DNA of 64,000 nucleotides, from the NCBI GenBank assembly GCA_018266915.1, contig JAFDZM010000068.1:1-64000 (forward strand), given 5' to 3'. Below are positions 4,138-7,973 of this stretch, one piece after another. The first letter of the stretch is position 1. Every line of letters begins with the position of its first letter. The translations under genes were made by a program, and so were the position numbers. The notes beneath the pieces are model-generated. The model saw only the letters and a list, made by a program, of their open reading frames with translations, was not told the DNA's origin and made no database searches. Source of the stretch: Bacteroidota bacterium. Lineage in GTDB: Bacteria > Bacteroidota > Bacteroidia > Sphingobacteriales > Sphingobacteriaceae.

Positions 4138-4794
4138 TCACACACTAATAATTCCACGTTTGATCGCAAAGATCACCAGCCCTACCAAATTTTTCGATCC
4201 GGTTTTTTCGAATAAACGGGCGCGATAGCCTTCTACGGTACGCACGCTAAGGAATATCTTGTCGGCAATCTCCTGGTTGGAGCATTCCTGGCAAACAAGA
4301 CGCAGCACTTCTATTTCGCGGTCATTCAGATCAACTGCGTATTGTCCGCCGCCCTCATTGTGACTGCCGGGGCCTACCAGTTGTTTGATAAGCGTGACCG
4401 ACAGGTGTTCGTTAAAATAAAACCCCTTGTTGTAAACCGTGAATATAGCATCGATGATTTCCTCAGGTTCAGCATTTTTAAGCAGATAACCTGATGCTCC
4501 GGCCTTCATCATGTCTACAATATATTTATCTTCGTTGTGCATGGATAGTGCCAGCACTTTGATATCCTTAAAATTCTGATGAATATAAGCTGTGGTTTGC
4601 ATGCCGTCCATTTCGGGCATTTTTATATCCATCAGGATCACATCGGGTTTGCTGTCGGCAAGCAAGCCGATCAGTTCCTTTCCGTTTGATGCTTCGATCA
4701 GGAGGTTAAAGTCGGGACAATCTTCGAGGGTAGCTTTTAAGCCGTTCCTGAAAATTTTGTGATCATCCGCAATCGCGAGATTTATCTGCTTCAT
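4138..4794 (-). CDS. NarL/FixJ-type response regulator (receiver + LuxR HTH)
   Basis: This is a 218-aa DNA-binding response regulator. The receiver domain (1-120) has acidic residues D10/D11 and the phosphoacceptor Asp56 in DVILMDIKMPEMDG. The LuxR-type HTH (about 150-215) carries LNDREIEVLRLV and SVRTVEGYRARLFEKTGS. It lies 33 bp after the histidine kinase gene and is the obvious partner of that kinase. It is the last gene of a four-gene minus-strand cluster starting at 6712. The target genes are unknown; the divergent gene at 7038 is a candidate. Confidence 0.93.
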   Translation of the reverse strand: MKQINLAIADDHKIFRNGLKATLEDCPDFNLLIEASNGKELIGLLADSKPDVILMDIKMPEMDGMQTTAYIHQNFKDIKVLALSMHNEDKYIVDMMKAGASGYLLKNAEPEEIIDAIFTVYNKGFYFNEHLSVTLIKQLVGPGSHNEGGGQYAVDLNDREIEVLRLVCQECSNQEIADKIFLSVRTVEGYRARLFEKTGSKNLVGLVIFAIKRGIISV

Positions 4795-4827
4795 AGACAG
4801 GCTAAAATTAATGAATATAATTAGTAA

Positions 4828-5616
4828 TCAGGATAAATGCACTTTTATGGTTGTAAGCGTGCCGCTGTGCGGCTTGGTATAAGTATGAATTTTACCGTTT
4901 ATGAACTGTGTGCGGCTCTCAAGGTTTTTTAGCCCGAAGCCATGTTTTATATTATCAGGGTCAAACCCAACGCCATTATCACTGAACGACATCATTAATG
5001 TGCCGTTCTCCCTCGTCAATTGCAATTGTATAGCTGTTGCGCCTGAGTGCTTTACCGCATTACCGAATAATTCCTGGGCAATCCGATAGAGCGTCACTTC
5101 AATTTCAGAAGAAAAGCGCTCATTGGACAGTTCTTTGGTAAAAGTAATTTTGATGCCGGTATTATGTTCCAGCCGTTCGCATAAAGCCTGTAGTGCATCT
5201 ATCAATCCAAAATCGGTCAAAACCGGAGGCAATACATTGTGAATAATATTACGGATCTCCTGGATGCATTCGTCGGTCAGCTTACGGGTATCAGACAGCA
5301 GATTTTTCGGATCATCATTTTGGATGATCTTATCCAAACGGTGAAGATTAAGTTTAATAGCTGATAATACCTGCCCCACACTGTCGTGCAGGTCTTCGGC
5401 AAGTCGCTTCCGCTCGGTTTCTTGTGTCTCGAAAACGGCATTTAGCAGATCGGTTTGCTTTTCGTCATGCAATTGACGCAAAACAACCTGGTTCTTTATC
5501 ATTCTTCGTTGATAAATAATAACGAAGAGGAATAAGAACACTACGAGGATAACAACCACGATGGTACCTGTTATCAGTATAGGGATCAAGTTGTTTTCTG
5601 GTCCTGAGGCTTGCAA
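4828..5616 (-). CDS. NarX/DesK-type sensor histidine kinase, single TM
   Basis: This 262-aa kinase has one membrane span (about 10-34) and almost no extracellular part, then a coiled segment. The HisKA_3 dimerisation domain carries phosphoacceptor His77 in RLAEDLHDSVGQ. The HATPase domain has an N box (NAVKHSG) and G boxes (DNGVGFDP, GFGLKNLESR). With no sensor domain of its own, it probably takes its signal from the membrane protein encoded immediately upstream, whose 3' end overlaps it by 31 bp. That overlap implies translational coupling. Partner regulator: 4138-4794. Confidence 0.92.
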   Translation of the reverse strand: MQASGPENNLIPILITGTIVVVILVVFLFLFVIIYQRRMIKNQVVLRQLHDEKQTDLLNAVFETQETERKRLAEDLHDSVGQVLSAIKLNLHRLDKIIQNDDPKNLLSDTRKLTDECIQEIRNIIHNVLPPVLTDFGLIDALQALCERLEHNTGIKITFTKELSNERFSSEIEVTLYRIAQELFGNAVKHSGATAIQLQLTRENGTLMMSFSDNGVGFDPDNIKHGFGLKNLESRTQFINGKIHTYTKPHSGTLTTIKVHLS

Positions 5617-6239
5617 AGTAATCCGACTGAAAATAATAAGTTAGAAATTATGTTGGTTATAGACTGCATTAGGTAGTAATATTTATGTTCTCCATTGATT
5701 TTAGTATATAACATAAATAGAAATATAGTGATAGAATAATAAAACAGAACCCCGGAATTGATCCAAAAAAGGCCCTGTTTTTCTATATACATAAATTCTT
5801 GCCTGCTTAGTAGTTGATAGAAATAGGTCAAAGATAATACGATAAGGAATATTGCTAAGACCGTATTCGAAATAGAAGGATATAACGATATACCCTCTAT
5901 AAAAATAGAGCTAAACAACATAACAAGCAATGCCGTTGCGCCCAGTATTAACGCCGTTTTCTTTAAGATCTGTTTATAAAAGGCCTTATTATAGATGATT
6001 GTAAAAAAAATTACAGCCGTCATATCAAAAAGATGCATCAAAAACAAATTGTTGAAAGATGTCAGCTTAAGAATGTAGGCTGTAACCAGGCTGATCATAT
6101 CAGGTATAACAGACAATAGGCAAAAAAGTGCCATTGTTTTTAATACCGTATCGAGCTGCTGATAATTATATAGCGCAGCAAGTACAGGAACGAAGCCCGA
6201 TATAACAGAAGCATAAACTAGTACTAAGGCGAGAGACAT
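5586..6239 (-). CDS. Seven-TM-like membrane protein, putative sensor input
   Basis: This protein of about 217 aa has six or seven hydrophobic segments and short loops and matches no enzyme family I recognise. Its 3' end overlaps the histidine kinase start by 31 bp, so it is probably the membrane input module of that kinase. Starts at 6239 (MSLALVLVY), 6287 and 6305 are all in frame. The first is favoured because it begins at the first membrane segment and does not overlap the upstream gene, which stops at 6266. The longer forms would overlap that gene by 22-40 bp and add a basic N-terminus. The function is inferred from organisation only. Confidence 0.7.
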   Translation of the reverse strand: MSLALVLVYASVISGFVPVLAALYNYQQLDTVLKTMALFCLLSVIPDMISLVTAYILKLTSFNNLFLMHLFDMTAVIFFTIIYNKAFYKQILKKTALILGATALLVMLFSSIFIEGISLYPSISNTVLAIFLIVLSLTYFYQLLSRQEFMYIEKQGLFWINSGVLFYYSITIFLFMLYTKINGEHKYYYLMQSITNIISNLLFSVGLLCKPQDQKTT

Positions 6240-6265
6240 TGCTGGTTGTTTACTATACGCCGCTG

Positions 6266-6712
6266 CTAAAGTCCATTTTGAGGACATCCTATTCCGCCTG
6301 GGCAAGGTACCGACTGCTCGCCAATAGTACCTGAGGTAGAAGCACCGCTGGCTGCTGCCGAGGTTTTTAAAGCAAATGCTTCTACCTGGGTACCAGAAGA
6401 TGGCAGCTGATCCTGACCAAAATGATTTACACCCGTAAAGACCAGGTGTACTTCTCCTTCCGATCTTGGGAAAAGTTTAGCTGAAAAACGTTGCCATGAA
6501 CTTGCTGGTTTGGCATTAGCGTAATAAAAACGCAGGCCTATGCAATCAGGCTGACTAAGGATTTTTTCTAAAATCTCACGGCCAAAAAATTGTGATACCA
6601 CACCACCCGGATTGCGTTGGCGATGGTTTTGGGTCCAGTCTTTTGCTTGTTTAATGTCAATCGCCGCGCCTTCTCTTCCTGTTAGTACTGGTGTTCTTTC
6701 TTGAGTTTCCAT
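6266..6712 (-). CDS. Small conserved-type protein with Cys-rich CPGGIGCP tail
   Basis: This 148-aa protein has no signal peptide or membrane span. Residues about 14-100 form a domain with pattern GREILEKILSQPDCIGLRF. The C-terminus ends in EQSVPCPGGIGCPQNGL, with two cysteines. The same domain pattern and the same (S)PCPG...CP tail motif occur in the divergent 311-aa protein at 7038-7973, so the two are related. It is the first gene of the membrane-protein/kinase/regulator cluster. I recognise no named family; I recall similar short Cys-tailed proteins in other Bacteroidota but cannot verify that. It could be a cytoplasmic modulator of the kinase system or its metal/redox sensor. Confidence 0.75.
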   Translation of the reverse strand: METQERTPVLTGREGAAIDIKQAKDWTQNHRQRNPGGVVSQFFGREILEKILSQPDCIGLRFYYANAKPASSWQRFSAKLFPRSEGEVHLVFTGVNHFGQDQLPSSGTQVEAFALKTSAAASGASTSGTIGEQSVPCPGGIGCPQNGL

Positions 6713-7037
6713 AATAAATAGTAGGGTTTTTAGGGATTTCGGACTAAAAATAGTATTTATTGATTACTTGCAATACTGTTGATACGATGGTTTTTAAGAA
6801 AGGTTGAGTGAGGAGTTTAGGTAAGTCGCTCATTTACAGCAATAATTATAAACAAGTGTGATTAACACGTGCCCAATGTCGAGTAGTTTTACGTAGCAGA
6901 AACAGTATTGGCACGGTCGCCTTCCTGATGAACTTAAAAAACTTACGTATTAGTCTGAATTAAATGGATTTATTTGAAGATTATAATAAGTAACTTAACT
7001 TAGCCTAAACTTATTTATTAATCCTTACTTAAAACTT
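6713..7037. other. Divergent intergenic region between the two Cys-motif proteins
   Basis: This 325-bp AT-rich region separates the divergent starts at 6712 and 7038 and must hold both promoters. I see no ORF, terminator or strong repeat. GTGCCCAAT near 6874 and ATTGGCACG near 6908 form a weak imperfect inverted pair that could be an operator. Confidence 0.4.
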
Positions 7038-7973
7038 ATGATCCAAACAATTTCAACAACCGAATTTAATCCGTGTTATGCAGGAGAGTTTATCACGGAA
7101 AGTTATTATCACGAACTTGTCGAAAATTTTAATGCTAAGTTTCCAACTGAAGTAACCTCAGTTCCCATTTCCAAATCGGTTATAAAAGCTGCGTTAGATG
7201 GAAACAGCGTTTCAGGGATTAAATTCATGAACGGCCTCGAAGATTCACATGATCCGTCTTCCAGAATTCTGGTGTTAATTCCAGGTAACTTTACTACTAA
7301 TAATACTTTGCCAAATTCAATAATTAATAAATCTGGCTTTTTAACAAATAATGGCACTGCTATTTCACTTGAAAGGACATGGGAAGTATTGTTTAACCAC
7401 GTGCTTCATTACAAGACATTAGATCCGGATATGCATTATACAAAAATTAACCGGGGATCTTTTTTGGGGAGAGAGCGTTTGTTGACACTTTTGAATGATT
7501 CAAATTGTGAAGACTTTATTTATCATTTTGGTTACGTTATTGAAGAGAATTTACCATACAAACCTATTATACAACCTGCAAATGGATTAAAAATGTTTGT
7601 CGAACAATCCATTCCATGTCCAGGGAGTGCACTTTGTCCAGACACTACATCTGTTCCGTGTGCTATAACCTATATCGCAACCTCATTTGCTGGAAAAGAA
7701 AGCGAAAATCAATTATCAGTTCTAAGATCCTTCAGAGATAAATTATTGCAAAACAACACTAGTGGTATTGCAATTGAAAAATACTATACTATTTCTGCTT
7801 CTTTAATCGAAGCTATAAACACCCGCGAAAATAAGGAAGCCATTTTCAGGGATATTTATAATAAATACTTAAAACCTTCTGTTGAACAGCTAAATCGTAA
7901 TGATGAGGCAAGCGCATATCTATTGTTTACAGAAGTAATAGATCATTTAACCAACGAGTATCTGTTCCAATAA
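7038..7973 (+). CDS. Two-domain protein with PCPG motif and CFI-box-like C-terminus
   Basis: This 311-aa protein has no signal peptide. It appears to hold two diverged copies of the domain found in the 148-aa neighbour: residues about 18-88 (pattern VIKAALDGNSVSGIKF) and about 106-170 (GRERLLTLLNDSNCEDF). A Cys-rich linker follows (EQSIPCPGSALCP and SVPC, about 190-212). Residues about 213-275 read TYIATSFAG...LRSFRDKLLQNNTSG...YYTISASLIEAI, resembling the CFI-box C-terminal domain (CFIATAAYG...LRxFRDxxL...YYxxSP). It is followed by a strong terminator and is probably monocistronic. The function is unknown; the pairing with the sensor cluster at 4138-6712 is inferred from the shared motif and divergent orientation. 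Confidence 0.7.
   Translation: MIQTISTTEFNPCYAGEFITESYYHELVENFNAKFPTEVTSVPISKSVIKAALDGNSVSGIKFMNGLEDSHDPSSRILVLIPGNFTTNNTLPNSIINKSGFLTNNGTAISLERTWEVLFNHVLHYKTLDPDMHYTKINRGSFLGRERLLTLLNDSNCEDFIYHFGYVIEENLPYKPIIQPANGLKMFVEQSIPCPGSALCPDTTSVPCAITYIATSFAGKESENQLSVLRSFRDKLLQNNTSGIAIEKYYTISASLIEAINTRENKEAIFRDIYNKYLKPSVEQLNRNDEASAYLLFTEVIDHLTNEYLFQ

Follow-up and report, generated by a model that had tools for sequence, protein, structure and literature searches.

Four genes on the minus strand of the window, the 64,000-nucleotide stretch of Bacteroidota DNA analysed here, encode what we read, with a probability of about 0.6, as a four-component signalling module, in which a 148-aa protein (A) docks on a seven-transmembrane (7TM) protein (TM), TM gates a histidine kinase (HK) and HK signals to a response regulator (RR). 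The transcription order is A, TM, HK, RR, and the gene for a 311-aa protein (B) is divergent from A; all five open reading frames (ORFs) were found where a first-pass annotation, made from the letters of the window alone, had placed a four-gene minus-strand cluster facing a divergent gene. The window is part of the genome of a Mucilaginibacter, a soil bacterium, as the nearest homologue of A is a protein of Mucilaginibacter sp. BT774 (72% identity). The genes of the module are:

4138 to 4794, minus strand: RR, NarL/LuxR-type response regulator (Pfam Response_reg 7.6e-28, GerE 1.7e-12)
4828 to 5616, minus strand: HK, histidine kinase (Pfam HisKA_3 1.1e-15, HATPase_c 6.8e-12; one N-terminal helix by hydropathy)
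5586 to 6239, minus strand: TM, predicted seven-helix membrane protein (AlphaFold, charge pattern, profile match at 5598 to 6239)
6266 to 6712, minus strand: A, 148-aa partner protein (ORF; no signal peptide; AlphaFold pLDDT 77)

Gene order and distribution of the module

A frame-independent recount of gene order, from which two A matches too near the end of their stretch were left out, placed TM directly after A in 143 of 152 A matches, the other nine being seven copies of B and two A genes that come first in a tandem A pair; leaving these out, TM follows A in 143/143. Downstream of the A-TM pair, HK was found in 136/142 and RR in 127/134. A homologues were present in 15 of 151 genomes of the family, in 27 of 395 genomes of the phylum and, using an alignment as query, at 70 loci of named genomes, which overlap in part with the loci of the genome searches and include Pedobacter, Hufsiella, Pontibacter, Chitinophaga, Flavobacteriales, Cyclobacteriaceae, Ignavibacteria, Zixiibacteriota and Edwardsbacteria. 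The module was thus seen in Bacteroidota, Ignavibacteria and related phyla and only there, other phyla not having been searched exhaustively. A homologues are not scattered, their place being always ahead of the 7TM, kinase and regulator genes.

TM homologues were more numerous (73 of the 395 Bacteroidota genomes, a single genome having as many as seven copies), and a reverse test was made from TM in 40 neighbourhoods, holding 42 TM copies, that were picked for A being undetected there. HK lay downstream of 40/42 copies and an iterated A profile recognised the upstream gene of 24/42; several of the remaining copies have a small upstream gene with a tail of the A kind (CPPNCPD, CPPGT), and other upstream genes have a Cys-free end (GQIYP, DIGNLWP or DLGNLRP). 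The host genome itself has four TM copies (contigs C70, C24, C14 and C21). Its three further modules (C24:72258-73142, locus L084; L233 on C14; L234 on C21) carry very different A proteins, at least one of which has an N-terminal signal or anchor. Paralogous modules within a genome generally carry diverged A proteins, and such multiple modules fit different input specificities.

Neighbours outside the module mostly differ between lineages, and for this reason a conserved output gene beside it was ruled out. Phage-tail-collar-domain proteins (PF07484, 1.9e-24 in L250) stand divergently beside the module at four loci that come from different families (L095 3823-4380, L235 2983-3525, L242 5481-6020 and L250 2372-3515); they have no obvious signal peptides and could be outputs. 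At L023 (3513-6654) two genes judged from their N-terminal sequences to be contractile-tail-sheath-like are divergent next to an A-TM-HK-RR module, which suggests a neighbouring extracellular contractile injection system. Variants of the module itself were also seen, in which a 677-704-aa protein replaces HK or separates it from the rest (L163, L167), HK is missing from an A-TM-RR set (L165), HK and RR matches fall within one long protein (L070), or two or more TM copies follow one A and A-TM-A-TM arrays alternate (L227, L080, L082, L065).

The A protein, its membrane partner and the kinase

The A domain has the pattern FFGREIL..ILxQxDCxGxRxYYA...GxNxxGxD and is followed by a C-terminal tail, EQSVPCPGGIGCPQN. 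A of the window contains GREILEKILSQPDC and EQSVPCPGGIGCP, and B contains GRERLLTLLNDSNC and EQSIPCPGSALCP, which bears out the Cys-Pro and GRE motifs that the first-pass annotation had seen in both proteins. A CP falls within the last 45 residues of 128/134 A partners compared to 22/1160 other ORFs, but the folded A domain is the most conserved part of the protein, rather than any leader-like region. AlphaFold models A as a small alpha/beta domain; no structural relative was found in the PDB (E > 1), a sequence-based search for the fold gave no convincing match, and neither did Pfam or NCBIfam give a convincing family. Two of 57 A homologues weakly match the PF18698 HisK_sensor family over the same stretch, both below its gathering cut-off of 27.3 bits (19.5 bits, E 0.0013, at L135 5995-6306; 14.7 bits at L162 5995-6309), with no match for A of the window or at the A loci of ten module-bearing genomes; these scores are a lead only, to a possible remote link of A to a kinase sensor fold. 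Some chains hold two A domains (L076 4381-5133, L146 5845-6645, L161 5911-6645 and L032 5969-6655); some of these are lipoproteins, TM is still next in each, and their layout parallels that of B.

For TM, AlphaFold gave a seven-helix bundle (pLDDT 92), and the loop charges (positive-inside rule) predict that its N-terminus is out and its C-terminus in. Positions N69, H75, S142, N202 and N206 are conserved and polar. Foldseek with the model returned generic seven-helix similarity only (best E 0.077, TM-score up to about 0.57), the sequence had no match in the PDB and no convincing family match in Pfam or NCBIfam, and a known 7TM or sensor family for TM was discarded, as none of 30 TM homologues scanned had a Pfam match, the 7TM model of the 7TMR-DISM receptors included. 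As for the gene overlaps described in the first-pass annotation, that between TM and HK is common among homologues, but that between A and TM depends on a TTG start of TM at 6305, and there is probably no such overlap, because homologues and the TM profile match place the start at the ATG at 6239, 26 bp beyond the end of A.

HK consists of HisKA_3 and HATPase_c with a single N-terminal transmembrane helix and has no separate sensor domain (Pfam, hydropathy), as had been claimed of a kinase without input domain, and because of this TM is proposed as its input. Its gene lies beside that of a receiver and GerE regulator, as in two-component systems, and this adjacency suggests that HK and RR are paired and that phosphotransfer would occur between them.

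Divergence of the components was compared by a mirror-tree type method over 68 non-redundant modules, using partial rho and bootstrap. With the other components accounted for, the partial rho was 0.26 for A and TM (bootstrap 0.15-0.38), 0.06 for A and HK and -0.07 for A and RR, and the A-TM correlation was above that of A-HK in 99% of bootstraps. Since the divergence of A tracks that of TM and not that of HK or RR, this supports A and TM as a probable direct pair. By the outcome of the reverse test, A is a fast-diverging, near-obligatory partner of TM.

B and the region upstream of A

The divergent gene and the intergenic region that it shares with A hold the following features:

6744 to 6773, minus strand: promoter-like stretch upstream of A, TTG...TATTTTTAG, picked out by eye
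6820 to 6838, minus strand: inverted repeat TGTAAATGAGCGACTTACC, putative RR-binding site (leave-one-out scans, near-fixed position)
7038 to 7973, plus strand: B, 311 aa (ORF divergent from the A operon)
7080 to 7319, plus strand: predicted A-like domain 1 of B, residues 15-94 (hhalign Prob 78)
7347 to 7643, plus strand: predicted A-like domain 2 of B with the EQSIPCPGSALCP tail, residues 104-202 (hhalign Prob 97, tail match)
7671 to 7868, plus strand: CFI-box-CTERM domain of B (NF041770, 43.3 bits, cut-off 40)

BLASTP aligned A and B over the tail alone (E 5e-5 for that single comparison), and a profile-profile comparison aligned the GRE...C domain as well as the tail (Prob 95.9, E 5.5e-9), so the kinship of the two proteins proposed in the first pass came through its profile test and, on this evidence, A and B are distantly related. 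A deeper A profile (57 homologues) matched B residues 100-207 with Prob 97.3 and residues 1-110 with Prob 78.1, the latter colinear across 80 columns, and the CFI-box part of B, used as a control, gave Prob 0.2. We therefore think that B is best described as a pair of A-like domains with the CPG..CP tail and a CFI-box-CTERM domain, because both halves before the CFI-box match the A profile and the control does not. B shares with the CFI-box-CTERM proteins its residues 212-277, which exceed the curated cut-off of NF041770 (43.3 vs 40 bits; 46.5 bits in the genome search), but the domain is rare elsewhere in Bacteroidota (6/148 genomes above cut-off), and our literature search on the CFI-box found no paper. 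B homologues were seen in some Mucilaginibacter only, always adjoining A, and the place in the conserved module that the first-pass annotation had given to B fell with this. B would be derived from A in this lineage specifically, with two domains and a fused CFI-box, and probably acts as a co-regulated competitor, decoy or output protein. In one Mucilaginibacter group, a protein of 608-647 aa that has transthyretin/carboxypeptidase-regulatory-like stretches but lacks a signal peptide is divergent upstream of A, with or without B (L020 8462-10288, L022 9220-11049, L104, L107, L108, L109, L112, L115, L116, L120 and L130).

The 19-bp imperfect inverted repeat precedes A by 108-126 bp and B by about 200 bp. 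Its distance from the A gene downstream is nearly constant across 16 loci, and in leave-one-out scans it ranked first at 16/16 of the loci that defined it; its 17-bp core has one exact occurrence in the 5.17 Mb host genome. The simplest reading is that the repeat is a putative RR-binding site and that, in Mucilaginibacter, the operon is probably autoregulated, because the repeat stands upstream of A and is unique in the host genome. A wider regulon was sought and rejected, since 22 sites with two or fewer mismatches compared with 17 for a reversed control and the sole one-mismatch copy was inside a gene, and hence no regulon can be called. The promoter-like stretch appears by eye to be conserved in orthologues as TTG..TTAGTTTTA.

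Mechanism, alternatives and meaning

We propose that A docks on TM, perhaps via its C-terminal tail, which is the most likely docking element, and that TM is the membrane input subunit that HK itself lacks. HK would be switched when the A-7TM unit changes its state, by ligand binding or by A being present or absent, and would phosphorylate the NarL-type RR; RR would then bind the inverted repeat upstream of A and control the operon that encodes it, possibly along with the divergent B gene in this strain. A would be the fast-diverging recognition subunit, with the A domain and the Cys-Pro tail as its conserved parts. What the analysis itself showed is the gene content with its order and universality, the kinship of A and B, the seven-helix fold as a prediction, the conserved element upstream of A and the covariation of A and TM; the contacts among A, the 7TM protein and HK, the phosphotransfer, the binding of RR to the repeat and anything said of the signal are inferences. 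Several findings weigh against this proposal: the A model, for which there is no structural relative, is of only moderate confidence, the mirror-tree correlation is modest and its pairs are not independent, a few A-TM pairs have no HK or RR nearby, and the inverted repeat was first picked by eye and does not occur in the M. gossypii group, Pedobacter and others. Furthermore, a signal peptide, anchor or lipobox is present in 19/150 A partners (~13%) and the majority, including A of the window, have none. In lineages where A has such a signal it would face the periplasm, and therefore either one docking mechanism fits both kinds of A or the location of A differs by lineage.

Alternatively, A may be an ordinary output gene, the first co-transcribed gene of an autoregulated operon, with TM alone sensing a small molecule within its helices. 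BtsS is a 7TM kinase of this sort, with its ligand, pyruvate, bound inside the bundle (PMC10653868), the conserved polar positions of TM could form a pocket, and the inverted repeat makes the promoter of A a likely target. We nevertheless consider this unlikely, since a target gene need not be inseparable from its receptor gene, whereas A always directly adjoins TM across phyla while other neighbours vary, and its divergence follows TM and not RR.

The first-pass annotation called A Cys-tailed and suggested that the module may sense metal, redox or a peptide. A switch in which metal binding or disulfide formation by the Cys-Pro tail is read out by the 7TM-kinase complex would suit the typical CPxxC-type spacing and the retention of the Cys pair in 103/114 distinct A sequences, including all nine with an N-terminal hydrophobic segment. 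However, the name Cys-tailed holds for most of the family only, as the pair is missing from 11/114 (~9%, one of them at a truncated contig end) that keep the same gene order; in some modules the tail has no Cys and the protein closes with, for example, GQIYP or DIGNLWP, and the spacing of the tail Cys varies from CX3C to CX5C. Cys chemistry is thus not the general mechanism, because of the A homologues without the pair, and we regard such a switch as very doubtful. As to a peptide, A might be the precursor of a secreted autoinducer, its tail being the mature peptide and the 7TM protein its receptor in a quorum-sensing circuit: the tail is short and rich in Cys and Pro, a 7TM protein, kinase and regulator are present, and the operon seems autoregulated with A coevolving with TM. 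This we hold to be highly improbable, as there is no conserved processing peptidase, exporter or maturation enzyme beside the module (no recurrent unlabelled neighbour resembled an Agr-like processing or export gene across unrelated loci), conservation is greatest in the folded domain, the tail is mid-protein in B and several A partners are lipoproteins. The sensing of metal, redox or peptide signals suggested in the first pass was not supported.

HK and RR belong to a known kind of kinase and regulator, and both 7TM input, as in BtsS, and separate membrane accessory proteins are known principles. LiaFSR-type systems combine a membrane accessory protein, a HisKA_3 kinase with little sensor domain and a NarL-type regulator, and so resemble the module in the separate accessory protein, the kinase nearly without input domain and the type of regulator, but here the accessory role falls to a 7TM protein that matched no Pfam or NCBIfam family, LiaF included, HK scores only weakly against the LiaS model (101 bits vs a cut-off of 450) and A is a fourth conserved component. 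The 7TMR-DISM receptors also have a 7TM bundle feeding intracellular signalling modules, but TM has no fused extracellular or output domain. The BtsS/BtsR system (LytS-type; PMC10653868) is alike in having seven helices and a periplasmic N-terminus feeding a histidine kinase, the same topology being predicted for TM; it differs in its fused 5TM-5TMR_LYT and its LytTR regulator, where here TM is a separate polypeptide with no detectable Pfam sensor-family match, the kinase is HisKA_3, the regulator is NarL-type (GerE) and A is always added. A literature search on the four-gene module found no paper, the A and 7TM families appear to be undescribed in Pfam, NCBIfam and the literature searched, and the fixed four-gene arrangement seems new. 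The suggestion of an undescribed signal-transduction module is strongly supported by this, as neither Pfam, NCBIfam nor the PDB gave a convincing match for A or TM and their gene neighbours are fixed.

Two families without a Pfam or NCBIfam entry are thus fixed partners of a kinase and a regulator in about one fifth of the sampled Bacteroidota genomes, often in several copies, and this provides a simple annotation rule for many hypothetical proteins. The module offers a testable answer to how the large class of sensor-less HisKA_3 kinases of Bacteroidota gets its input, and it opens a new subject, a bacterial 7TM receptor that would stand alone and have a protein as its partner. A more speculative idea, and one that we think quite unlikely, is that the genome encodes in the A proteins the ligands of a large new family of stand-alone 7TM receptors, the Cys-Pro tail serving as a tethered agonist. 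If true, Bacteroidota would carry several diverged ligand-receptor-kinase-regulator sets per genome, by which they would sense their own or their neighbours' proteins.

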